From: Rhodospirillaceae bacterium
Lineage (GTDB): Bacteria; Pseudomonadota; Alphaproteobacteria; Dongiales; Dongiaceae
DNA length: 52,352 bases
Reading direction: 5' to 3'
Assembly: GCA_016794165.1 (NCBI GenBank)
Contig: JAEUKV010000147.1
Location: 1 to 52,352 of the forward strand
Below, in pieces: positions 41,390 to 50,496 of the stretch. A program made the position numbers and the translations under genes. Each line of letters starts with the position of its first letter. Positions within the stretch are counted from its first letter, which is position 1. Below the pieces are notes generated by a model that ran no database searches, was not told where the DNA came from, and saw only the letters and a program-made list of their open reading frames with translations.

Positions 41390-41535
41390 CCGTGCTCCTG
41401 ATCCTTATTCCCATCGCCCTGGTCCTGGGCGGGCTCGGCCTCTGCGCCTTCCTGTGGTCGCTGAAATCCGGCCAATACGACGATCTGGAGGGGGCTGCCC
41501 GCCGGATCCTGTTCGACGACCCGGAAAATTCCTGA
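41386..41535 (+). CDS. ccoS: Cbb3 oxidase maturation protein CcoS
   Basis: A 49-residue protein with one membrane helix followed by FLWSLKSGQYDDLEGAARRI, the unmistakable CcoS signature, ending FDDPENS. CcoS is needed for cofactor insertion into cbb3. Its ATG overlaps the ccoI stop by 4 nt. It closes the operon. The start of the next gene lies 55 bp on, behind a sigma-E-like promoter whose upstream part touches the ccoS stop. Confidence 0.93.
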   Translation: MTVLLILIPIALVLGGLGLCAFLWSLKSGQYDDLEGAARRILFDDPENS

Positions 41536-41543
41536 TCCCGCGC

Positions 41544-41573
41544 TGATCCGGATGGCCGGTGCGCCCGTAGCCA
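41544..41573 (+). promoter_or_regulatory. RpoE(ChrR)-type promoter candidate for DUF6134-SDR-NTF2
   Basis: TGATCC (41544-41549), 18 bp, then TAGCCA (41568-41573). The -35 element and spacing equal those upstream of rpoE (49083-49112) and of the FAD-oxidoreductase operon. It predicts a start near 41580, close to the ribosome site GGAGGG at 41579-41584, so the leader would be very short. A second TGATCC at 41533 has no matching -10. Confidence 0.55.
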
Positions 41574-41589
41574 CAGCCGGAGGGTCATC

Positions 41590-42279
41590 ATGCGGAAATC
41601 ACTGTCGGCTGGCATCGTTATGATGGGCCTGATTGCGCCTTGGCCGGGCGGCGCGGCGGAACCGGCCGACCCGCTGGCCCTTTACGGCCCCTTCGCCACC
41701 TATGACATCCTGCGCAACGGCGAGATCGTCGGCGAGCACCGCATCGACTTCGACCGGCGCGACGATCAATTGTGGGTCGAAAGCAGGTCCGACATCGAAG
41801 TGCCCTTCTTGTTCATGACGGCCTATGACTTTACGTATCGCGCCACCAGTGTCTGGGACGGCGGCGACCTCCTCAAACTCGAAGCCGTCACCGATGACGA
41901 CGGTGTCCGTACCGAGATCGTCGCCGAACGCCAGGCCGGCAATCTGCTGATTACCGGGCCGGATGGGCAGAACCTGACCGACCCGCTGTTTTCGGTTTCC
42001 GAACACTGGTCGGAATCGTTCATCGAGACAACCAGACAGCTCAATACCATCACCGGGGAAGTAAACCGCATTTCGGTGACCCCCCTCTCCACGGCCTTCA
42101 TCCCCACTTCCACTGGCATCACCCAGGCGAACCGCTATCGCTTGAGCGGCGATCTCAGCCTGGAAACCTGGTACGACACTGAGGGCCGCTGGCTTGGTAT
42201 GCGTTTCGCCGCCAGGGACAATTCCACGATCGAATACCGCTGCCGGACCTGTGCCGCCGATGTGGCGAAGCGACCGTGA
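41590..42279 (+). CDS. DUF6134 family exported protein
   Basis: A 229-residue protein with a signal peptide (MRKSLSAGIVMMGLIAPW, cleavage near GGAAEPAD). The mature part is beta-rich: YDILRNGEIVGEHRIDFDRR, then RSDIEVPFLFMTAYDFTYRATSVWDGGDLLKLEA. This matches the DUF6134 pattern of a periplasmic protein of unknown function that recalls lipid-binding barrels. GGAGGG precedes the ATG. The stop overlaps the GTG start of the SDR gene. It begins a three-gene unit behind a TGATCC-N18-TA promoter, and lies between the cbb3 operon and the RpoE-ChrR lipid cluster, with which it probably belongs. Confidence 0.8.
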   Translation: MRKSLSAGIVMMGLIAPWPGGAAEPADPLALYGPFATYDILRNGEIVGEHRIDFDRRDDQLWVESRSDIEVPFLFMTAYDFTYRATSVWDGGDLLKLEAVTDDDGVRTEIVAERQAGNLLITGPDGQNLTDPLFSVSEHWSESFIETTRQLNTITGEVNRISVTPLSTAFIPTSTGITQANRYRLSGDLSLETWYDTEGRWLGMRFAARDNSTIEYRCRTCAADVAKRP

Positions 42280-43016
42280 CGACAGGATGCTGGTGGATCA
42301 CTGGCGCGGGAAGCGGAATCGGCCGGGAACTCGCCCGCCAGATTGCCGCCGGCGGGATCAAGGTCATCGTCAGCGGGCGACGGCCGGAAGCGCTGCTGGA
42401 GACCGCGGACGACCATAGCCGGATCGTGCCATTGGCCCTCGACGTCACCGATGCGCTCGCCGTCGACGCGGCCATCGCCACGATGGAGCAAACCCACGGC
42501 CCGGTCGACGTCGCGATCCTCAACGCCGCGCTCTATCAGCCGATGGATCTCGTGGACTTCGACCGCGCCACCATCGCGCGGCTGTTCGAGACCAACGTGA
42601 TGGGTGTCGCCAACTGCCTGCAGCCGCTGCTTGAGCGCATGCGCGCGCGTGGGCGCGGGCATATCGTCATCGTCGCCTCGGTGGCCGGCTATCGCGGCCT
42701 GCCGAAGGCGGCTGCCTATGGCGCCACCAAGGCCGCCTTGATCAACATGGCCGAGGCGCTGCAGCCGGCCGCCGCCGCCGCCGGGATCAGGCTGCAGATC
42801 GTCAATCCCGGCTTCGTGGAAACACCGATGACTTCGGTCAACCGCTTTCCCATGCCCTTTCTCATGCGGCCCGAACAGGCGGCGGCCAGGATCCTTGCCG
42901 GCATGAAGGGCGGCGGGTTCGAGATTGCATTCCCCTGGATGTTCGTGCTGCTCTTGAAGCTCGGGCGGCTGCTGCCCTATTGGCTCTATCTCAAATTGAC
43001 AAGGCGGGTGTTGTGA
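42276..43016 (+). CDS. Short-chain dehydrogenase/reductase
   Basis: A 246-residue classical SDR. The cofactor loop TGAGSGIG lies at about residues 9-16 (TTGCWWITGAGSGIGREL), LNAALY replaces the usual NNAG, and the catalytic Ser and YxxxK are in IVASVAGYRGLPKAAAYGATKAAL. The C-terminal 40 residues are hydrophobic (FPWMFVLLLKLGRLLPYWLYL), suggesting membrane attachment, as in lipid-acting SDRs of RpoE-ChrR clusters. GTG at 42276 overlaps the DUF6134 stop (GTGA), and its own stop overlaps the next GTG. Substrate unknown; an oxidised or modified acyl chain is an attractive guess from context. Confidence 0.88.
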   Translation: MTTGCWWITGAGSGIGRELARQIAAGGIKVIVSGRRPEALLETADDHSRIVPLALDVTDALAVDAAIATMEQTHGPVDVAILNAALYQPMDLVDFDRATIARLFETNVMGVANCLQPLLERMRARGRGHIVIVASVAGYRGLPKAAAYGATKAALINMAEALQPAAAAAGIRLQIVNPGFVETPMTSVNRFPMPFLMRPEQAAARILAGMKGGGFEIAFPWMFVLLLKLGRLLPYWLYLKLTRRVL

Positions 43017-43471
43017 CCACGGCACGACGAGCCCAGGATGTCCTTGCCGACTATCTGGCCGTATGGACGGATCCGTCGCCGCAGCGCGACCTGTCGCGCC
43101 TGGATGAGCTGACCACCGACGACGTGCGCTTCAAGGACCCGGTGCAGGAGGTGATCGGCCGCAGCCGATTGAAGGCAATCTTCGCCGATGCCGCCCGGTC
43201 CGTCGCACATCCACTGGTCACCATCGACGCCATCGCCTGGGTTGACGATCGGCGCGCCTTTGTCAAATGGCACTATGGTGGCACCCTGATCAGGCTGAAG
43301 CTGCAGAACTGGCAGGTCGCAGGCATGAGCGACATGCGCTTTGCCAGCGATGGCCGCCTGGAGAAGCATGAGGACCACTGGGATCTGTCCAGTGGCCTTT
43401 TCGAGCATTTCCCGCTGGTGGGCGGCCTATTCCGCCGCCTGCGCCACCGCTTGCGGATACACCGCGGCTGA
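43013..43471 (+). CDS. NTF2/SnoaL-like small protein
   Basis: A 152-residue protein of the nuclear-transport-factor-2 fold: a helical start (AQDVLADYLAVWTDP), LDELTTDDVRFKDPVQEVIGRSRL, then beta strands (AFVKWHYGGTLIRLK) and a C-terminal YxExHWDL-like stretch (EDHWDLSSGLFEHFPLVGG). Such proteins are isomerases, hydrolases or binding partners. This type is usually encoded with an SDR and the Cfa-like enzyme near rpoE-chrR. It starts at GTG 43013, overlapping the SDR stop. Its last 45 nt overlap the DUF3833 gene on the other strand. Confidence 0.8.
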   Translation: MTTARRAQDVLADYLAVWTDPSPQRDLSRLDELTTDDVRFKDPVQEVIGRSRLKAIFADAARSVAHPLVTIDAIAWVDDRRAFVKWHYGGTLIRLKLQNWQVAGMSDMRFASDGRLEKHEDHWDLSSGLFEHFPLVGGLFRRLRHRLRIHRG

Positions 43472-44029
43472 CGCCGCCCGGGCGCCGGGCTTCTGAAAGG
43501 CGATCGTAACCACGCCGACCTCGATTCCCCAGCGGCTCACGGTGGCGCGATTGAGCACCACTCCATCGGTCTGCAGGAACATCCAGTCGTCAAAAGCCAC
43601 GCGCCAGATACCGTCGCCGACCTTGAGGTCCATGCGATAGGTCCAGTTCAGGGCATTGCCAGCCACCACGCCCTTGGCCGTCCCGATGACGTCGCCGGCG
43701 CGACCTTCATATTGGCCGTCACCCAGCGGTTTGATGCGCCAGATCCGCTGCTCGGTTTCGCCGTCGCTGTAAACGAAATCCTCGGTGAGAACCAGCACGC
43801 CCTCCTCCATCACCCCGTTGATGTCGACCACGAACTGGCGCCGCAAATTGCCGAAGCGATCATGGAACATGCCCCAGGCCCGTGCTGGGCCGAGGAAATA
43901 CTCTTCCGGCTTGAAGCTCGGTTCCCGCTGCGCAAAATCATCGATCCGCATAGTGTCACATCCACTTGTCACGCCCAGAACAGCAACCAATAGCGCGTAG
44001 CGCATCCCACGAAGCCATCTCTCGACCAT
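43427..44029 (-). CDS. DUF3833 lipoprotein
   Basis: A 200-residue lipoprotein. The signal ends in VTSGC (about residues 20-24), and a shorter start at ATG 44005 is possible. The mature part, with GMFHDRFGNLRRQFVVDINGV, VYSDGETEQRIWRI and NWTYRMDLKVGDGIWRVAFDDWMFLQ, is the DUF3833 pattern: a predicted beta-barrel or lipocalin-like protein of unknown function common in RpoE-ChrR/Cfa-like clusters. It is the last gene of the five-gene minus-strand unit, 33 bp after the MFS gene. Its end overlaps the convergent NTF2-like gene by 45 nt. Anchoring in the envelope suggests a lipid-handling task. Confidence 0.83.
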   Translation of the reverse strand: MVERWLRGMRYALLVAVLGVTSGCDTMRIDDFAQREPSFKPEEYFLGPARAWGMFHDRFGNLRRQFVVDINGVMEEGVLVLTEDFVYSDGETEQRIWRIKPLGDGQYEGRAGDVIGTAKGVVAGNALNWTYRMDLKVGDGIWRVAFDDWMFLQTDGVVLNRATVSRWGIEVGVVTIAFQKPGARAASAAVYPQAVAQAAE

Positions 44030-44062
44030 GTCGCCGCCGCCGTTGCCGGTTGGTACCGGCGA

Positions 44063-45394
44063 TCAGTCGGCCGGACGAACCTGTTGGGGGTTGAGTTGCC
44101 GGGCGATGCTGGTATGGCGCTGCCGATCCAAGGGGAAGCGCCACATCATCATCACCGCTATTGCCTTGAATACGCAGGGAACCCAGGCATAGATCACCGC
44201 GAGGGCAAAGGCGCCCGTTCCGGTTGCGGTGGCGGGCACTACGCTGGCCTGCAGGTCGAAACCAAGGACTGCCAGCACCGGGAATGCCACCCCCACCGCG
44301 AGGGCGGCGGAGAGCTTGCCGGACATCGAGGAGAAGGCGAAGTAAAGGCCGGCGCGCTCGGCCCGATGATTGAGGCGGTCAAGATCCACTACATCGGCCT
44401 GCATGGCGGGTGGCAAGGCAAGGTCGGCACCCAGGGCAAAACCCGTCACGATGCAGATCGCCGCGAAGGCAGTGACCGCGCCGAAGGGCAGAAAGGGTAC
44501 CAGGAGGAAGGCGAGGATCGCCACGATCATCGCGAGGCACCACAGGCGGTGCTTGTCGATCCGCCGCAGCAGATAGAGCCAAAGCGGCAGACTCGCCAGC
44601 GCGGCTGCGAAATATATCAGGAGGACCAGGCCCAACTGCCGTTCCGTGGCCCCCAGCCGATTGAGGATGAACAGCGGAAACAGCGCCGCCGGCAGCCCGT
44701 TTGCAACCCCGTTGATGAACCAGGCGCCGAGCAGGCGGCGAAAGGGCGGATTGGCGACGACCGCGCGCCATGCGTCGCGCCAATTGCCTGCCTGCACCCC
44801 GACCGGGCGCGGCGCCTCGGGCACGTATCGCAGCAGCAGAAAGAGCGCCGGCGCGCCGAGGGCGATGGCAATCACCGCCGTTCCCCGCATCGCCTCGGCC
44901 AGCGTCCATCCGAATTGCTGCAACACCGCCGGCAGGCTGGCTGCGAGGGCGATGCCGATCAGTCCCATGCCCTCGCGCCAGGACGCAATGCGGGAACGGC
45001 CGCGATAGTCGTCGCTGAGTTCCGCGCCCCAGGCGGTGTAGGGAACCATGACCATGGACCAGCCGACATAGAGCAGCCCGTACCACAGACCAAGATAGAG
45101 CGCCCCCACACCTTCCGGCGGGGTGAACACTGCCAGCATTGCCGCAGCCGCGACGATGGCGCCCAGGGCAATGAACGGCTTGCGACGACCACGACGATCG
45201 CTGACATGGCCGATCAGCGGGTCGGTGAGGACGTCGATTGCACGAGCGGTAAAGATCGCGATCCCGGTCGCAGTCAGGCCGAGGCCGAGGGATTGCGCAT
45301 AGAAGGTCGGCACCAGCACATGGGCCGGGATCGTCGGGACCGCGAGTGCCAGCGCCGGCAGGCCATAGAGGAAATGCCCGCCGCGCCCGATCAC
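44063..45394 (-). CDS. MFS transporter, GPH-like, of the RpoE-ChrR cluster
   Basis: A 443-residue inner-membrane transporter with about 12 helices. It resembles the glycoside-pentoside-hexuronide cation symporter group of the major facilitator superfamily: DVLTDPLIGHVSDRRGRRKPFI is the signature loop after TM2, and VPYTAWGAELSDDYRGRSRI is also characteristic. A transporter of this type is regularly found beside the Cfa-like methyltransferase and DUF1365 genes, so a lipid or lipid precursor may be the cargo; no sugar-use genes are nearby. I choose the GTG at 45394, which overlaps the methyltransferase stop (GTGA); the frame upstream is a shadow of that gene. Confidence 0.85.
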   Translation of the reverse strand: MIGRGGHFLYGLPALALAVPTIPAHVLVPTFYAQSLGLGLTATGIAIFTARAIDVLTDPLIGHVSDRRGRRKPFIALGAIVAAAAMLAVFTPPEGVGALYLGLWYGLLYVGWSMVMVPYTAWGAELSDDYRGRSRIASWREGMGLIGIALAASLPAVLQQFGWTLAEAMRGTAVIAIALGAPALFLLLRYVPEAPRPVGVQAGNWRDAWRAVVANPPFRRLLGAWFINGVANGLPAALFPLFILNRLGATERQLGLVLLIYFAAALASLPLWLYLLRRIDKHRLWCLAMIVAILAFLLVPFLPFGAVTAFAAICIVTGFALGADLALPPAMQADVVDLDRLNHRAERAGLYFAFSSMSGKLSAALAVGVAFPVLAVLGFDLQASVVPATATGTGAFALAVIYAWVPCVFKAIAVMMMWRFPLDRQRHTSIARQLNPQQVRPAD

Positions 45395-46653
45395 CGTTGC
45401 AGCTTCAGATGCACGACGTCGATCGAGCCGGACCGGAAGCCCGCCTCGCAATAGGCAAGGTAATAGGTCCACATGCGCCGGAACCGTTCATCGAATCCAA
45501 GCGGCTGGATGCGCGGCCAGGCCTGCAGGAAGGATTCGCGCCATTCGCGCAGGGTGCGCGCATAGGAAGCGGCAAAGCCGTCGTCGCCGCGCACGGTCAA
45601 TCCGCTGTTCTGGGCGAGTTGGTGCAGGATGGCATTTGTGGGCAGCATTCCGCCCGGGAAGATGTAGCGCTGGATGAAATCGGCGTTGCGGCGATAGGCC
45701 TCGAAGCGTTCCTCGGCGATGGTGATGATCTGCAGGGCGGCGGTGCCGCCCTCCTTCAGGCGCTCCCGCAGCACGTCGAAATATCGCTTCCAATGCGACT
45801 CTCCCACCGCCTCGAACATCTCGATCGAGACGATGCTGTCGAACTTGCCCTCGCAATCGCGGTAGTCCTGCAGCCTGAGATCGACCAGGTGATTGAGCTG
45901 GTTTCGCTGCATGCGCTCCTGGGCGAAGGCAAGCTGTTCCTTGGAGAGAGTCAATCCGGTGACGCGGCAGCCGAAATCGCGCGCCGCCACTTCGGCAAAG
46001 CCACCCCATCCGCAGCCGATTTCCAGTACATGCTTGCCGGGCGCCAGCTCCGCCAGTTCCGCCACACGGCGGTATTTGTCCGCCTGTGCCGCCGGCAGTT
46101 CATTGGCGCCACGGTCGAAATAGGCCGACGAATAGGTCATCGACGGATCGAGCCACGCACCATAGAAGGCGTTGCCTAGATCGTAGTGATAGGAAATATT
46201 TCTCCGCGCGCCGCGTCGGGAGTTGGCCCGCATCAGATGGCGCAGCCGATGCCAGGCGCGGATCAGGCGACTACCGTTGAGGGCGCTGGCGAGCGCGCTC
46301 TCGTTGCGGGCAGCGAGTTCGATCAGGTCGGTAAGGTCCGGGCTGTCGACTTCTCCCGCCATATAGGCCTCGGCAAAGCCCATGTCCCCGCCCCGGATCA
46401 GGCGCTGCAGACCCCGGAGGTCGCGAATCTCCAGCGCCGCGTCGGGCCCCGGTTCCACCCCTTCCACCGCATGATGGCGGCCGTCCGGAAAGTAGACCGC
46501 GAGGCGCCCGACCCTGAGATGGGCAAGGGCGCGATGAAACACACTCTCCCAAAGGCTCGATAACATCGGGCTGCGGTGTGGCAGGTTGCTCAATGCGCCT
46601 TCATCCTCGCGCAATGCCGGTCGGGAAGCCGTGTTCTGCGTCGGATCGGACAT
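45391..46653 (-). CDS. Cyclopropane-fatty-acid-synthase-like methyltransferase
   Basis: A 420-residue SAM-dependent methyltransferase of the Cfa family, which modifies double bonds of phospholipid acyl chains. Landmarks: the N-terminal SCP2-like part (GPDAALEIRDL), then SYHYDLGNAFYGAWLDPSMTYS, VLEIGCGWGGFAEVAA for SAM, GLTLSKEQLAFAQER, the EMFEAVGESHW segment with the active-site Glu, and RYIFPGGMLPT. The start ATG at 46653 has AGGGGG 7 nt before it; an ATG at 46659 is the alternative. It overlaps the DUF1365 gene by 53 nt. In Rhodobacter sphaeroides the RpoE-regulated member of this family, as I recall, is linked to singlet-oxygen stress and furan fatty acid formation. Whether this one makes cyclopropane or methylated chains cannot be told. 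Confidence 0.88.
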   Translation of the reverse strand: MSDPTQNTASRPALREDEGALSNLPHRSPMLSSLWESVFHRALAHLRVGRLAVYFPDGRHHAVEGVEPGPDAALEIRDLRGLQRLIRGGDMGFAEAYMAGEVDSPDLTDLIELAARNESALASALNGSRLIRAWHRLRHLMRANSRRGARRNISYHYDLGNAFYGAWLDPSMTYSSAYFDRGANELPAAQADKYRRVAELAELAPGKHVLEIGCGWGGFAEVAARDFGCRVTGLTLSKEQLAFAQERMQRNQLNHLVDLRLQDYRDCEGKFDSIVSIEMFEAVGESHWKRYFDVLRERLKEGGTAALQIITIAEERFEAYRRNADFIQRYIFPGGMLPTNAILHQLAQNSGLTVRGDDGFAASYARTLREWRESFLQAWPRIQPLGFDERFRRMWTYYLAYCEAGFRSGSIDVVHLKLQR

Positions 46654-47464
46654 CTTCATCCCCCCTGTCGACACCTGTTGCAGTGTCACCCCGGCGGAGA
46701 TTATCGGTGGAAGTTGGCCGTTTGTGAAGCGGCACCCCCTTCCACCACAGCTTGAGAGCCTCCCAGTGAATACCGGCCACAACCTTCAGAGTCAGGAAGG
46801 GATAGATCACCAGGAGTTTGAGCAAGGCGGCGTCGTTGAGCGCCACCCGGCGACCGACGAAAGCGGCCTGCAGCAGACGCCCTTCGGCGTCGCTCTGGTC
46901 AATGCTGAGTGCCACCTTGTCACCCGGCGGCAGCACGGCAAAGCGATAACCGCCGGAGACGTCGTTGAAGGGGGACACATAGAGCTGTTTGGCACAGCTC
47001 TGGCGGATGACCTCGGCGCCGGGCGTTACCGGCAGGACATAGGCATGGCGCCCGCCGAAGGTGTTGTTTACCTCGTAGAGCGTCGCGCGCAGGGCACCCT
47101 CACGATCATGGCAGTAATAGATCGAGATCGGATTGAAGACGAAGCCGAACATGCGCGGCAGTGTCAGCAGCCTGATCGCTCCCAGGTCGAAATACTGGCC
47201 GCCACGCACCAGTTGATCCTTGACCCAGCCGACGAGGTCGCCGCTGCCATCGCCGTGATCGATAGCCCGGAACGAAAACGGTGCCGCCCTTTCGATTCCC
47301 AGCAACCTTGGGCGACCTGAAAATTGGGCCAGTTCGTCGAGATCAAGCAGCAGGTAGAACATGCTGTAGCGCAGGTAGTGCGCCTTGGGCCGCAGCCGGC
47401 GGTGCATCACCGAGCCGGCATAGATCGCCGATTGGCGCTGTTCGCCGGGCGCCCCAATGCTCAT
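46601..47464 (-). CDS. DUF1365 family protein
   Basis: A 287-residue protein of the DUF1365 family. Its beginning (AIYAGSVMHRRLRPKAHYLRYSMFYLLLDLDEL) and the motif LLTLPRMFGFVFNPISIYYCHD are characteristic, followed by EVNNTFGGRHAYVLP and SPFNDVSGGY. The function is unknown, but these proteins are nearly always encoded between an FAD amine-oxidase-like enzyme and a Cfa-like methyltransferase, exactly as here. A role in the same acyl-chain modification is therefore likely. The ATG overlaps the FAD-enzyme stop by 4 nt. The 3' end overlaps the methyltransferase start by 53 nt, and the last 20 residues look unconserved. Confidence 0.87.
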   Translation of the reverse strand: MSIGAPGEQRQSAIYAGSVMHRRLRPKAHYLRYSMFYLLLDLDELAQFSGRPRLLGIERAAPFSFRAIDHGDGSGDLVGWVKDQLVRGGQYFDLGAIRLLTLPRMFGFVFNPISIYYCHDREGALRATLYEVNNTFGGRHAYVLPVTPGAEVIRQSCAKQLYVSPFNDVSGGYRFAVLPPGDKVALSIDQSDAEGRLLQAAFVGRRVALNDAALLKLLVIYPFLTLKVVAGIHWEALKLWWKGVPLHKRPTSTDNLRRGDTATGVDRGDEDVRSDAEHGFPTGIARG

Positions 47465-48888
47465 GTCGCGGCACCGACAGCGACCGGCAGCGCGGGGATC
47501 GGGTCAAGGCCGAGGGAGATCTTGATCCGGTCGGATTCCGCGCCCACCGACCAGGGCCGGCGCACGCCGCCCAAGACCTCGGCCACGGCAAGACCCGACT
47601 GCAGCCCGTCTTCATGGAAACCGGCCCCAAAATAAGCGCCGCAGAACCATACCCCGCCCTGCCCCTGCAGCCGCCACAGCTGGCGCTGCGCCCGCATCGC
47701 GGCGAGGTCGAACAGGGGATGGGCATAGTCGAACTCCGCCCAGATCCGGGCGGGATCGACAGGTCGGCTGGGATTGAGTGTCACGAAGATCGGCCTTGCC
47801 GTCGGCAGGTGCTGCAACCGGTTCATCCAATAGGTGACGCAGATCAGTGAGTCGTCGCCGCCCGCGCCCCCGATCGGCGCGTCGCTGATGACGTTCCAAC
47901 TCGACCAGGCGGCGCGGCGCTGGGGCATCAGGTTCCTGTCCCCATGCAGAACGGCCCGGTTCGGCTGATAGCGCATGGCGCCGAGCAAGCGACTTTCCGC
48001 ATCGGTCGGCTGGGCCAACAGGCCCAGTGCCTGATCCGCATGGGTCGCCAGAACGACGGCTTCGAACCTTTCCCGCCGGCCATCCGCCATCACGACCACT
48101 GGGCCATCTTCATCGCGCTCCACCCGCTCAATGCGCGCATTGAGGCGAAGATCGACGGCGCGATCCGCCAACAGGCGCTCAACATAGACCCGGCTGCCAC
48201 CCAGTACCGTTCGCCATTGCGGGCGGTCGGTCAGTTGCAGGAGGCCATGATTGTCGCAGAAGCGCACGAAGGCTTCGAGCGGGTGGCGCAGCATCTGTTC
48301 GGCCGAGGTCGACCAGATCGCACCACCCATCGGCAACAGGTGATCGCGCACGAAGGCCGCGTCATAGCCCGATTGCAGCAGGTAATCCCCCAGCGTGAGA
48401 TCAGCGGCATGGTCCAGTGCCCGTCGGGATTCCCGATAGAATCGCAGGGTCTGCGCAAGCATGCGCCACATGCGCGGCCGCAGCAGGTTGCGCTTCTGGG
48501 CGAAGAGGCCGCGCAGGTTGGAGCCGGAATACTCGAAACGCCCCCCCTCGACGGAGGCCGCGAACGACATGTCGGTCGGCCGGGTCGCCACACCGAGATG
48601 GGCGAACAACGCCTGCAGGTTGGGATAGGTTCGTTCGTTGAAGACGATAAACCCGGTATCGACCGGGACCCGACCTTCGGGCAGGTCGAGGTCAACAGTA
48701 TGGCTGTGCCCACCCGGCCGCGACTCCCGCTCGAACAGGGTTACCGCATGGCGCTCCGCCAGAGCCCAGGCGGCGGAAAGTCCTGCTATGCCCGAGCCCA
48801 GAACCGCGATGCGGCGCGACCCGTCCGGCAGGGACGATTGATGGTTGGGCTCGATCGGGAGATAGGGGGATTGATCGTTGGGGGACAT
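47461..48888 (-). CDS. NAD(P)/FAD-dependent amine-oxidase-like oxidoreductase
   Basis: A 475-residue flavoprotein. The FAD-binding loop IAVLGSGIAGLSAAWAL is at about residues 27-43, followed by FERESRPGGHSHTVDL, and VDTGFIVFNERTYPNL marks the COG2907-type family of RpoE-ChrR clusters. Further on, VVLATHADQAL and the C-terminal GVWFCGAYFGAGFHEDGLQSG complete the FAD site. Enzymes of this group desaturate or oxidise lipid substrates; in R. sphaeroides a gene of this region is implicated in furan fatty acid synthesis, but I am not certain which one. It is the first gene of the five-gene minus-strand operon and has a TGATCC-N18-TA promoter candidate 68 bp upstream. Confidence 0.88.
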   Translation of the reverse strand: MSPNDQSPYLPIEPNHQSSLPDGSRRIAVLGSGIAGLSAAWALAERHAVTLFERESRPGGHSHTVDLDLPEGRVPVDTGFIVFNERTYPNLQALFAHLGVATRPTDMSFAASVEGGRFEYSGSNLRGLFAQKRNLLRPRMWRMLAQTLRFYRESRRALDHAADLTLGDYLLQSGYDAAFVRDHLLPMGGAIWSTSAEQMLRHPLEAFVRFCDNHGLLQLTDRPQWRTVLGGSRVYVERLLADRAVDLRLNARIERVERDEDGPVVVMADGRRERFEAVVLATHADQALGLLAQPTDAESRLLGAMRYQPNRAVLHGDRNLMPQRRAAWSSWNVISDAPIGGAGGDDSLICVTYWMNRLQHLPTARPIFVTLNPSRPVDPARIWAEFDYAHPLFDLAAMRAQRQLWRLQGQGGVWFCGAYFGAGFHEDGLQSGLAVAEVLGGVRRPWSVGAESDRIKISLGLDPIPALPVAVGAAT

Positions 48889-48962
48889 AAGGGACTCTGA
48901 TTGATGCCGCGGGATGGAGCGGCGCCGCGATGACGGCTGCCATCATTTCCATTTTGCTGGCA

Positions 48963-48992
48963 TGGGTACGGCTTCGCACCCCTGCCGGATCA
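48963..48992 (-). promoter_or_regulatory. RpoE(ChrR)-type promoter candidate, FAD operon
   Basis: On the minus strand TGATCC (48992-48987), 18 bp, then TACCCA (48968-48963). The -35 and spacing match the rpoE site exactly, while the -10 keeps only TA of the TAAG-type consensus. The predicted start lies about 68 nt before the FAD-oxidoreductase ATG. Confidence 0.5.
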
Positions 48993-49082
48993 CCGGAAAT
49001 CCGGGATTCCAGCGGGCATCGCGGAAAATCTTCTCAATCCTAGAACAAGTGGCGAAAGGCCCGCTGCCCGGCGGCAAGCCCA

Positions 49083-49112
49083 TGATCCAACCCGAAGCCG
49101 GACGCGTAAGTC
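49083..49112 (+). promoter_or_regulatory. rpoE: RpoE(ChrR)-type promoter of rpoE-chrR
   Basis: TGATCC (49083-49088), 18 bp, then TAAGTC (49107-49112). From memory, the Rhodobacter sphaeroides RpoE consensus is TGATCC near -35 and TAAG-like near -10. This predicts autoregulation with a leader of about 150 nt before the GTG at 49268. Confidence 0.7.
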
Positions 49113-49267
49113 AGGCTATGGATACCATGCATCCCTCTGCGCTGCATCAAATGCCTGACCTGATATGGGCCGGGCGGTTGCGCCCCGCATTTGCGCCGGT
49201 GCAAAGGCCCGCGATAAAGATTAAGAATAGAGCATGCACCGCCGCAAGCCAGCCCTCGGGCCTCACC

Positions 49268-49843
49268 GTGACGATTGAGCTGACGTCGGAATCCAGCGCG
49301 GAGAGGATGACCGCGCTGCTCTGCAGCCTGAAGGCAGAGCCGGACGAGGCGGTGTTTGCCGAGCTTTTCCGCTATTTCGCCCCCCGGCTCAAATCCTACA
49401 TGCGCAAGCTGGGCGCGCCAGAAGACGTGGCCGAGGAGCTGGCACAGGAATCCATGGCGATGGTCTGGCGCAAGGCGCATCTTTTCGACGAGGCGCGCGC
49501 CGGGGCGGGAACCTGGATCTTTTCGATCGCCCGCAACCTGCGAATCGACGCGTTCCGGCGCCAGAAGCGGCCCGAGATCTATGCGGACGACCCGACCCTG
49601 GTCCCCGACGGACCGGACTCACCGGAAACGCAGCTCGATCAGGGCCAGCAGGCCAGGGCCGTCCGCGCCGCCCTGGCGACACTGCCAGCCGAGCAGGCGC
49701 GCATCGTTCATCTGTCCTTTTTCGAAGACAAGCCGCACGCGGCGATCGCCGAGCAACTCGGCATTCCGTTGGGAACCGTGAAGTCGCGCATGCGTCTTGC
49801 CTTTCAACGGTTTCGCAAGGCCCTAGGAGAGCCTGAGTCATGA
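49268..49843 (+). CDS. rpoE: ECF sigma factor RpoE (ChrR-controlled, group ECF11-like)
   Basis: A sigma factor of about 191 residues that directs transcription of photo-oxidative (singlet oxygen) stress genes in related bacteria. Region 2 spans VFAELFRYFAPRLKSYMRKLGAPEDVAEELAQESMAMVWRKAHLFD with GTWIFSIARNLRIDAFRR. Region 4 is LPAEQARIVHLSFFEDKPHAAIAEQLGIPLGTVKSRMRLAFQRFR. These match RpoE of R. sphaeroides. The start is uncertain: GTG at 49268 gives the usual N-terminal length; ATG at 49307 behind GGAGAGG would shorten it by 13 residues. It overlaps chrR by 4 nt, the standard coupling of sigma and anti-sigma. It has its own promoter candidate of the type it would recognise. Confidence 0.92.
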   Translation: MTIELTSESSAERMTALLCSLKAEPDEAVFAELFRYFAPRLKSYMRKLGAPEDVAEELAQESMAMVWRKAHLFDEARAGAGTWIFSIARNLRIDAFRRQKRPEIYADDPTLVPDGPDSPETQLDQGQQARAVRAALATLPAEQARIVHLSFFEDKPHAAIAEQLGIPLGTVKSRMRLAFQRFRKALGEPES

Positions 49844-50496
49844 TCACACATCATCCCGGCGAAGAACTGGTTGCCGCCTATGCGGCGGGCACGCTCGACG
49901 AAGCCAGTTCGCTCGCCATTGCCACGCATCTGACGCTCTGCCCGTCCTGCCGCCATGCGTTTCTCGAGTTCGAGGCGCTCGGCGCGGCACTGGTCGACGA
50001 GATGTCGGTGGTCCCGATGGCGCAGGACGCATTTGCGGCGACCATGGCCCGGGCAAGGGCGGGCGTTGAACTGCGGCTGGATCGACCGCCATCACCAGCG
50101 CGGCAACGGCAGCCCGCCGTGCTGCCACTGCCGCTGCAGAACTATGTTGGCGGCGATCTCGCGGCCGCGAAATGGCGACCGCTGGGCCCCGGCATCCATC
50201 ATATGCCGCTGATTTCCGCAGATGGCGTGACGGCACGGCTGTTGCGGATTGCCCCCGGCAAATCGGTCTTCGCCCATAGCCATGGCGGGTCAGAGCTAAC
50301 CCTGGTGCTGAAGGGCAGTTACGAGGCTGGTGGCGAGCGCTTCGCCCGTGGCGATCTTGAGATGGCCGATGACAGTGTCAATCACCGGCCGGTCGCCGGC
50401 ATGGAGGATGTCTGCGTCTGCCTGGCCGTGACCGATGCACCGCTGCGGTTCGACAACTGGCTCGGTCGCCTGATGCAACCCTTCATCGGCATCTGA
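49840..50496 (+). CDS. chrR: Zinc anti-sigma factor ChrR
   Basis: A 218-residue two-domain anti-sigma factor that holds RpoE inactive until singlet oxygen or related signals release it. The N-terminal zinc anti-sigma domain has His5, His30, Cys34 and Cys37 (THLTLCPSC). The C-terminal cupin domain keeps the probable second metal site His146, His148, Glu152 and His182 (AHSHGGSELTL; NHRPV), plus the close cysteine pair Cys192/Cys194 (VCVCLAV), which is also found in R. sphaeroides ChrR. The full sensing architecture is therefore conserved. The ATG overlaps rpoE by 4 nt. A strong terminator follows 42 nt after the stop. Confidence 0.93.
   Translation: MITHHPGEELVAAYAAGTLDEASSLAIATHLTLCPSCRHAFLEFEALGAALVDEMSVVPMAQDAFAATMARARAGVELRLDRPPSPARQRQPAVLPLPLQNYVGGDLAAAKWRPLGPGIHHMPLISADGVTARLLRIAPGKSVFAHSHGGSELTLVLKGSYEAGGERFARGDLEMADDSVNHRPVAGMEDVCVCLAVTDAPLRFDNWLGRLMQPFIGI

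Follow-up and report, generated by a model that had tools for sequence, protein, structure and literature searches.

A predicted RpoE-ChrR stress regulon in a Dongia relative, with a probable DUF3833 promoter inside a transporter gene and a proposed leaderless rpoE

The window analyzed here is a stretch of 52,352 nucleotides, contig JAEUKV010000147.1 of assembly GCA_016794165.1, from a member of the Dongiaceae (Alphaproteobacteria) deposited as Rhodospirillaceae bacterium. It contains a block of genes in which rpoE and chrR, encoding a sigma factor of the extracytoplasmic function (ECF) group ECF11 and its zinc anti-sigma factor, stand next to a divergent operon beginning with a gene for a flavin adenine dinucleotide (FAD)-dependent protein (FAD-DUF1365-Cfa-MFS-DUF3833), which converges on a DUF6134-SDR-NTF2 operon, SDR being a short-chain dehydrogenase/reductase (Table 1). 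Gene names given in a preliminary description of this DNA were confirmed by Pfam and NCBIfam profiles. The arrangement and its promoter motifs make it highly probable that in this Dongia relative the block forms an RpoE-ChrR (ECF11) stress regulon, organized in at least four transcription units, one of which would start from a promoter for DUF3833 inside the transporter gene.

Table 1. Genes and predicted promoters of the RpoE-ChrR block (positions in the window)
Feature	Position	Strand	Basis or remark
Predicted sigma-E (ECF11) promoter TGATCC-N16-CGTA, DUF6134-SDR-NTF2 operon	41544..41569	+	conserved in SDR-linked DUF6134 loci
DUF6134 protein (PF19630), predicted exported, all-beta model	41590..42279	+	158 bits; Sec signal peptide read from sequence
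Short-chain dehydrogenase/reductase (SDR), probable RSP_1087 equivalent	42276..43016	+	profile match; core regulon list PMC5507510; 4-nt GTGA overlap with DUF6134
NTF2/SnoaL-like protein	43013..43471	+	profile match; 4-nt GTGA overlap with SDR gene
DUF3833 lipoprotein (PF12915), RSP_1088 equivalent	43427..44029	-	lipobox VTSGC read from sequence; beta-barrel model
GPH-type MFS transporter, RSP_1089 equivalent	44063..45415 (start approximate)	-	Pfam/NCBIfam
Putative promoter TGATCT-N16-CGTA in 3' end of MFS gene, toward DUF3833	44171..44196	-	
UfaM-like/Cfa fatty acyl methyltransferase (CMAS family)	45391..46659 (start approximate)	-	Pfam/NCBIfam; PMC7380195
DUF1365, UfaO-like furan-forming monooxygenase	46601..47464	-	Pfam; PMC7380195
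FAD/amine-oxidase-fold protein, UfaD-like desaturase	47461..48888	-	Pfam; PMC7380195
Predicted sigma-E promoter TGATCC-N16-CGTA, FAD-DUF1365-Cfa-MFS-DUF3833 operon	48967..48992	-	found in 17/20 loci
Predicted autoregulatory sigma-E promoter TGATCC-N16-CGTA, rpoE-chrR	49083..49108	+	conserved at rpoE
rpoE (ECF11 sigma factor), proposed start ATG 49118	49118..49843	+	start 9 nt after CGTA
chrR, zinc anti-sigma factor with cupin domain	49840..50496	+	TIGR02451 199.9 bits, cut-off 124.5

The preliminary description singled out the pattern TGATCC-N18-TA, and its three instances lie on the strands and at the positions reported there, all in intergenic DNA: the first between the stop codon of ccoS (41535) and the DUF6134 ATG (41590), the other two between rpoE and the divergent FAD gene. 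By itself the pattern is only mildly unusual in the window (0.63 matches expected; 4 of 100 dinucleotide shuffles reach three), and with 35 matches genome-wide, some within genes, it was too loose to define a regulon and was dropped. All three sites extend to the stricter form TGATCC-N16-CGTA. With either pyrimidine at the last position of the −35 hexamer (TGATCY-N16-CGTA), the window holds four sites versus 0.10 expected, a number that none of 100 shuffles reached; the fourth, TGATCT-N16-CGTA within the MFS gene, was missed in the preliminary description. The 3.74 Mb genome contains ten TGATCC-N16-CGTA sites, three of them within 7.6 kb of this window (P ~5e-7 at the rate observed elsewhere in the genome). 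An extra TGATCC at 41533-41538 shares bases with the stop codon of ccoS; it stands 11 bp ahead of the −35 element of the DUF6134 promoter and has no CGTA at the required distance.

The window motif matches the published ECF11 (RpoE-ChrR) promoter consensus in sequence and spacing. In Rhodobacter sphaeroides the Pos19 promoter reads TGATCC(N15)GCGTA (PMC5036791), in agreement with the TGATCC-type −35 element that the preliminary description gave for RpoE of that species; sites of Pseudomonas syringae PSPTO_1043 are TGATCC-N16-CGTA (PMC5507510), and those of Shewanella RpoE2 contain TGATCC and CGTA with a mapped transcription start downstream (PMC4336711).

Two of the ten perfect sites in the genome (C147, C158) fall within genes. 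Others lie 27 nt upstream of the DNA photolyase gene phrA, 31 nt upstream of a type I GTP cyclohydrolase gene, folE (PF01227; G000:C144:39587-39612, minus strand), upstream of a gene with DUF5939 and guanylate-cyclase domains (G000:C177:10015-10040, minus strand), upstream of tspO (G000:C156:16803-16828), and near a PAS-domain gene. Because genomes lacking ChrR also have an excess of forward matches, a reversed-pattern control is not a fair background, and position-specific conservation was therefore used as evidence. The site is kept at the same genes across species although the spacers are otherwise unlike. Among ChrR-bearing Dongia genomes it precedes rpoE in six, counting the window's own (one with AGATCC), and also in the more distant G016; it precedes the FAD operon in five, phrA in five, folE in three, the cyclase gene in five and tspO in two (G000, G004), while the DUF6134 site is found in four (one with TGATCT) plus the incomplete G010. 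Judged by these sites, phrA and folE, which the preliminary description did not include, are regulon members outside the window, and the guanylate-cyclase gene is probably another one in Dongia; as a class-wide member the latter was rejected, its site being present only in Dongia. The presence of this site in five Dongia genomes, four besides the window's own, suggests a cyclic-nucleotide output. A distant relative of the cyclase gene lies directly behind chrR at locus L163; a lead to an adenylate cyclase in Bradyrhizobium was discarded, as it turned out to be a two-hybrid reagent.

The DUF6134, SDR and NTF2 genes are joined by short overlaps (Table 1) and thus form one operon. In a contig scan, DUF6134 relatives were recovered at 31 loci, from Azospirillum, Caenispirillum, Roseospira, Minwuia, Magnetovibrio, Kordiimonadales and further groups; most of these loci share the block DUF6134-SDR-NTF2 / DUF3833-MFS-CFA-DUF1365-FAD / rpoE-chrR. 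When up to one mismatch is allowed, 28 of 35 loci with SDR as the next gene have the site before DUF6134, against 1 of 29 loci in which SDR does not follow (P 1.6e-10); removal of duplicate loci leaves 21 of 28 SDR-linked loci with the site. The sole exception among unlinked loci, L163, has a split and divergent operon, both halves of which are preceded by a site. With a weight matrix built from the rpoE and FAD sites alone, scores of at least 12 were obtained upstream of DUF6134 at 23 of 29 loci, and of at least 11 upstream of DUF3833 at 20 of 22, with few or no matches at control junctions (MFS 0/22, DUF1365 0/20, NTF2 0/25, ChrR 0/17, SDR 1/29, CFA 2/22). These data point to DUF6134 as a regulon member, which is new so far as the searchable literature shows, and probably add the NTF2-like protein to the singlet-oxygen response; no description of either gene as a regulon member was found in the searched literature, in which no paper names DUF6134.

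The embedded fourth site reads TGATCTATGCCTGGGTTCCCTGCGTA on the coding strand of the MFS gene. Its T-variant −35 element is supported by P. syringae PSPTO_4335, which has TGATCt-N16-CGTA upstream and was induced ~102-fold on PSPTO_1043 overexpression (PMC5507510). Of the 21 loci where the MFS gene is followed by DUF3833, 20 have the element over the same codons, and the 21st has CATA in place of CGTA. Residues vary around it (V/M/L before ATC; C/V/A/I before GTA) and the hexamer bases are fixed: the Val codon at the site is GTA in 20 of 20 cases, although GTA has a share of 4.6% among the Val codons in the rest of these genes. Across 417 codon columns, an invariant third base despite a varying residue is found only at the motif (G, C, A) and in one trivial Trp/Arg column. 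Both clusters in this set without DUF3833 beside the MFS gene (L139, L163) also lack the embedded site.

A class-wide check drew on a second set of 70 loci, selected only for the presence of DUF3833 and searched over 330 nt. Nine genomes (one of them Dongia mobilis, which is in the first set as well) carry the site at the same place. In family f16, all four sampled genomes have both hexamers 21 nt downstream at the 16-nt spacing, with ATC and GTA where others have Ala codons, and three genomes (G044, G122, G392) have the site in the intergenic gap between MFS and DUF3833. These observations bear on the possibility that the embedded element, which falls within a conserved part of the transporter (motif IYAxxPxV), reflects constraint on RNA or protein and is no promoter. 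We consider that explanation unlikely, since at the two hexamers third bases are fixed while residues vary, L/A residues occupy these positions in lineages that lack the motif, f16 re-forms the hexamers over other residues, and the motif also occurs outside the reading frame, in the intergenic gap. The embedded site thus appears to have been retained by evolution at the cost of normal codon choice and residues, and DUF3833 has a probable RpoE promoter of its own, set within the transporter gene in this lineage. In other alphaproteobacterial families, stand-alone DUF3833 genes (L226, L238, L254, L259, L262) have TGAACC-N16-CGTA 21-72 nt upstream; TGAACC is possibly a lineage variant of the −35 element.

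A further regularity concerns the start of rpoE. At 31 of the 39 rpoE loci that have the site, CGTA is followed 8, 9 or 10 nt later by an open, in-frame rpoE start codon, and a start codon at this distance occurs downstream of 1 of 57 sites elsewhere (FAD 0/27, DUF6134 1/20, phrA and folE 0/10). In the window, the ATG at 49118 is ~50 codons upstream of a GTG at 49268. ECF promoters start transcription ~6-9 nt after the −10 element, so the rpoE transcript would begin at or within 1-2 nt of the start codon, and we propose that the rpoE mRNA is leaderless. The fixed position of the start codon would then allow the transcription start to be estimated in silico, and it suggests that the RpoE N-termini now annotated in these genomes may be incorrect. 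In Magnetospirillum, 5' untranslated regions this short make up only 5% (PMC9549626). The N-terminal extension implied by the upstream ATG has weak codon periodicity (GC content 0.69 at third positions versus 0.62 at first and 0.56 at second), and its residues, unlike the start position, are poorly conserved; our claim is therefore limited to the start position and extends to no function of the added residues.

Taken together, it is likely that an in-frame promoter has been kept across many Alphaproteobacteria, bending codons and residues (ATC and GTA replacing Leu/Ala codons), re-forming 21 nt away or in the adjacent gap, and giving DUF3833 a stress-induced transcript of its own, while rpoE alone would be leaderless, with a feedback independent of a Shine-Dalgarno sequence. 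Several observations weigh against the regulon as drawn here. Seven of the 28 SDR-linked DUF6134 loci have no recognizable site; at one of these, L142, the operon lies directly behind chrR. For the embedded site, the codon-null joint probability (log10P ~-41 with residues and codon usage taken into account) counts related species as if they were independent, which overstates it. In the class-wide set, a site with one mismatch or fewer is present near DUF3833 in only 24 of the 61 genomes that carry ChrR, which makes the promoter of DUF3833 lineage-restricted. That count includes two loci that the 330-nt search missed and that were added by hand, and the comparison with ChrR-lacking genomes (0/9) is weak (P 0.02); with perfect matches only (14/61 versus 0/9) it is not significant (P 0.19).

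An ECF sigma factor with Sigma70_r2 and r4_2 domains lies directly upstream of a ChrR-family gene, the only one in this genome to exceed the curated ChrR cut-off. Zinc ligands of ChrR are a His and HxxxCxxC in the anti-sigma domain and HxH...E...H in the cupin (PMC6852236); the protein encoded here has H4/H5, H30-LTL-C34-PS-C37, and HSHGGSE plus a later His, read from its sequence, in agreement with this list. It scores 159.8 bits against the equivalog NF051881 (cadmium/peroxide/UV responsive; cut-off 300) and hence is classed as ChrR family and not as this equivalog. Another sigma factor, for instance EcfG of the general stress response or an additional ECF sigma, might read the promoters, with RpoE-ChrR as one of several inputs; Alphaproteobacteria have several ECF sigmas, and CGTA resembles the −10 element of other ECF groups. 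This seems quite unlikely, given that TGATCC is the known ECF11 −35 element, that rpoE-chrR has the same site, that none of nine ChrR-lacking genomes has a site before DUF3833, and that only one ChrR is present above cut-off. Least probable is that the sites are chance or codon-driven matches among genes clustered for other reasons under no common regulator, an explanation that can draw on the frequency of the loose pattern and on the two in-gene sites but conflicts with the enrichment of the full motif, its conservation at the same genes across unlike spacers, and its absence from operon-internal control junctions. A single RpoE-ChrR regulon, as the preliminary description had predicted, is well supported, since relatives and other Alphaproteobacteria keep the motif ahead of rpoE, the FAD operon and DUF6134-SDR-NTF2 as well; the nine genes it had counted besides rpoE-chrR come to eight (FAD, DUF1365, Cfa, MFS, DUF3833, DUF6134, SDR, NTF2).

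The core RpoE-ChrR regulon of Dufour et al. 2008 comprises rpoE, chrR, the SDR (RSP_1087), RSP_1088, the GPH transporter (RSP_1089), RSP_1090, RSP_1091, phrA, and a Cfa-family methyltransferase (as given in PMC6852236, PMC5507510, PMC7074977). In the present genome the motif stands upstream of rpoE-chrR, the FAD operon, the SDR operon and phrA, and the sigma/anti-sigma pair, promoter and core genes are those of the R. sphaeroides singlet-oxygen regulon, in which membership of SDR, DUF3833, MFS, UfaO, UfaD, rpoE and chrR is already known. The arrangement differs: the RSP_1091-1087 operon of R. sphaeroides has the SDR as its last gene, with the methyltransferase encoded elsewhere (RSP_2144), whereas here the methyltransferase lies inside the FAD operon, and the SDR is grouped with DUF6134 and the NTF2-like gene in an operon of their own that converges on it. 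Besides the core member phrA, FolE2 is an RpoE target in Rhodobacter (PMC7074977); the folE found here is type I, a change of enzyme type within the same regulon. Regulons of P. syringae PSPTO_1043 and Shewanella RpoE2 (PMC5507510, PMC4336711) share the promoter and a phrB-SDR-FAD-DUF1365-cfa set, though in a gammaproteobacterial gene order unlike that seen here, and the P. syringae lipoprotein PSPTO_2515, the RSP_1088 ortholog, has no PSPTO_1043 binding upstream (PMC5507510). The regulon is of a known kind; what the searchable literature indicates as new are the predicted DUF6134 member, the probable promoter within the MFS gene, and the proposed leaderless start of rpoE, the last two of which we did not find described there.

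All three families of the furan fatty acid pathway UfaM-UfaD-UfaO (CMAS, FAD amine oxidase, DUF1365; PMC7380195) are adjacent in the FAD operon, and the corresponding activity, formation of 9M5-FuFA from cis-vaccenate, is predicted. Deletion of the RSP_1087-1089 equivalents (SDR, DUF3833, MFS) left furan fatty acids unchanged in R. sphaeroides (PMC7380195), and by analogy these accessory genes probably do something other than furan fatty acid synthesis. The all-beta model of DUF6134, a protein with a predicted signal peptide, has a pLDDT (predicted local distance difference test) of 85.5; VioE, LprG and LolA are among its fold matches, all weak with template modeling (TM) scores below 0.5, and no sequence relative with a solved structure was found. 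The predicted DUF3833 barrel shows moderate likeness to nitrobindin (TM 0.55 by query, 0.69 by target) and to fatty-acid-binding-protein-like (FABP-like) proteins, with CpeS lyase at 0.49/0.54, a weak hint of a lipocalin/FABP-like fold. As a guess, both DUF6134 and DUF3833 may bind lipids, or products of lipid oxidation, within the envelope.

In the mechanism we propose, ChrR would keep RpoE inactive until, as in Rhodobacter, membrane oxidation led to its removal; freed RpoE would then direct RNA polymerase to TGATCY-N16-CGTA promoters. At least four units would be driven in this block: rpoE-chrR, in positive feedback and from an mRNA beginning at or next to its start codon; the furan-fatty-acid/transporter operon; DUF6134-SDR-NTF2; and an extra DUF3833 transcript from within the transporter reading frame. 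phrA, folE and, in Dongia, the guanylate-cyclase-domain gene would be further members, and singlet oxygen would presumably induce all units jointly.

A pattern first seen by eye thus becomes a testable regulon that can be read from sequence far from Rhodobacter. In the embedded element, promoter and protein sequence would occupy the same bases, and the lineages that have, have moved, or lack it provide natural controls. If this reading is true, knocking out the operon or altering codons of the transporter gene could abolish DUF3833 expression unnoticed.

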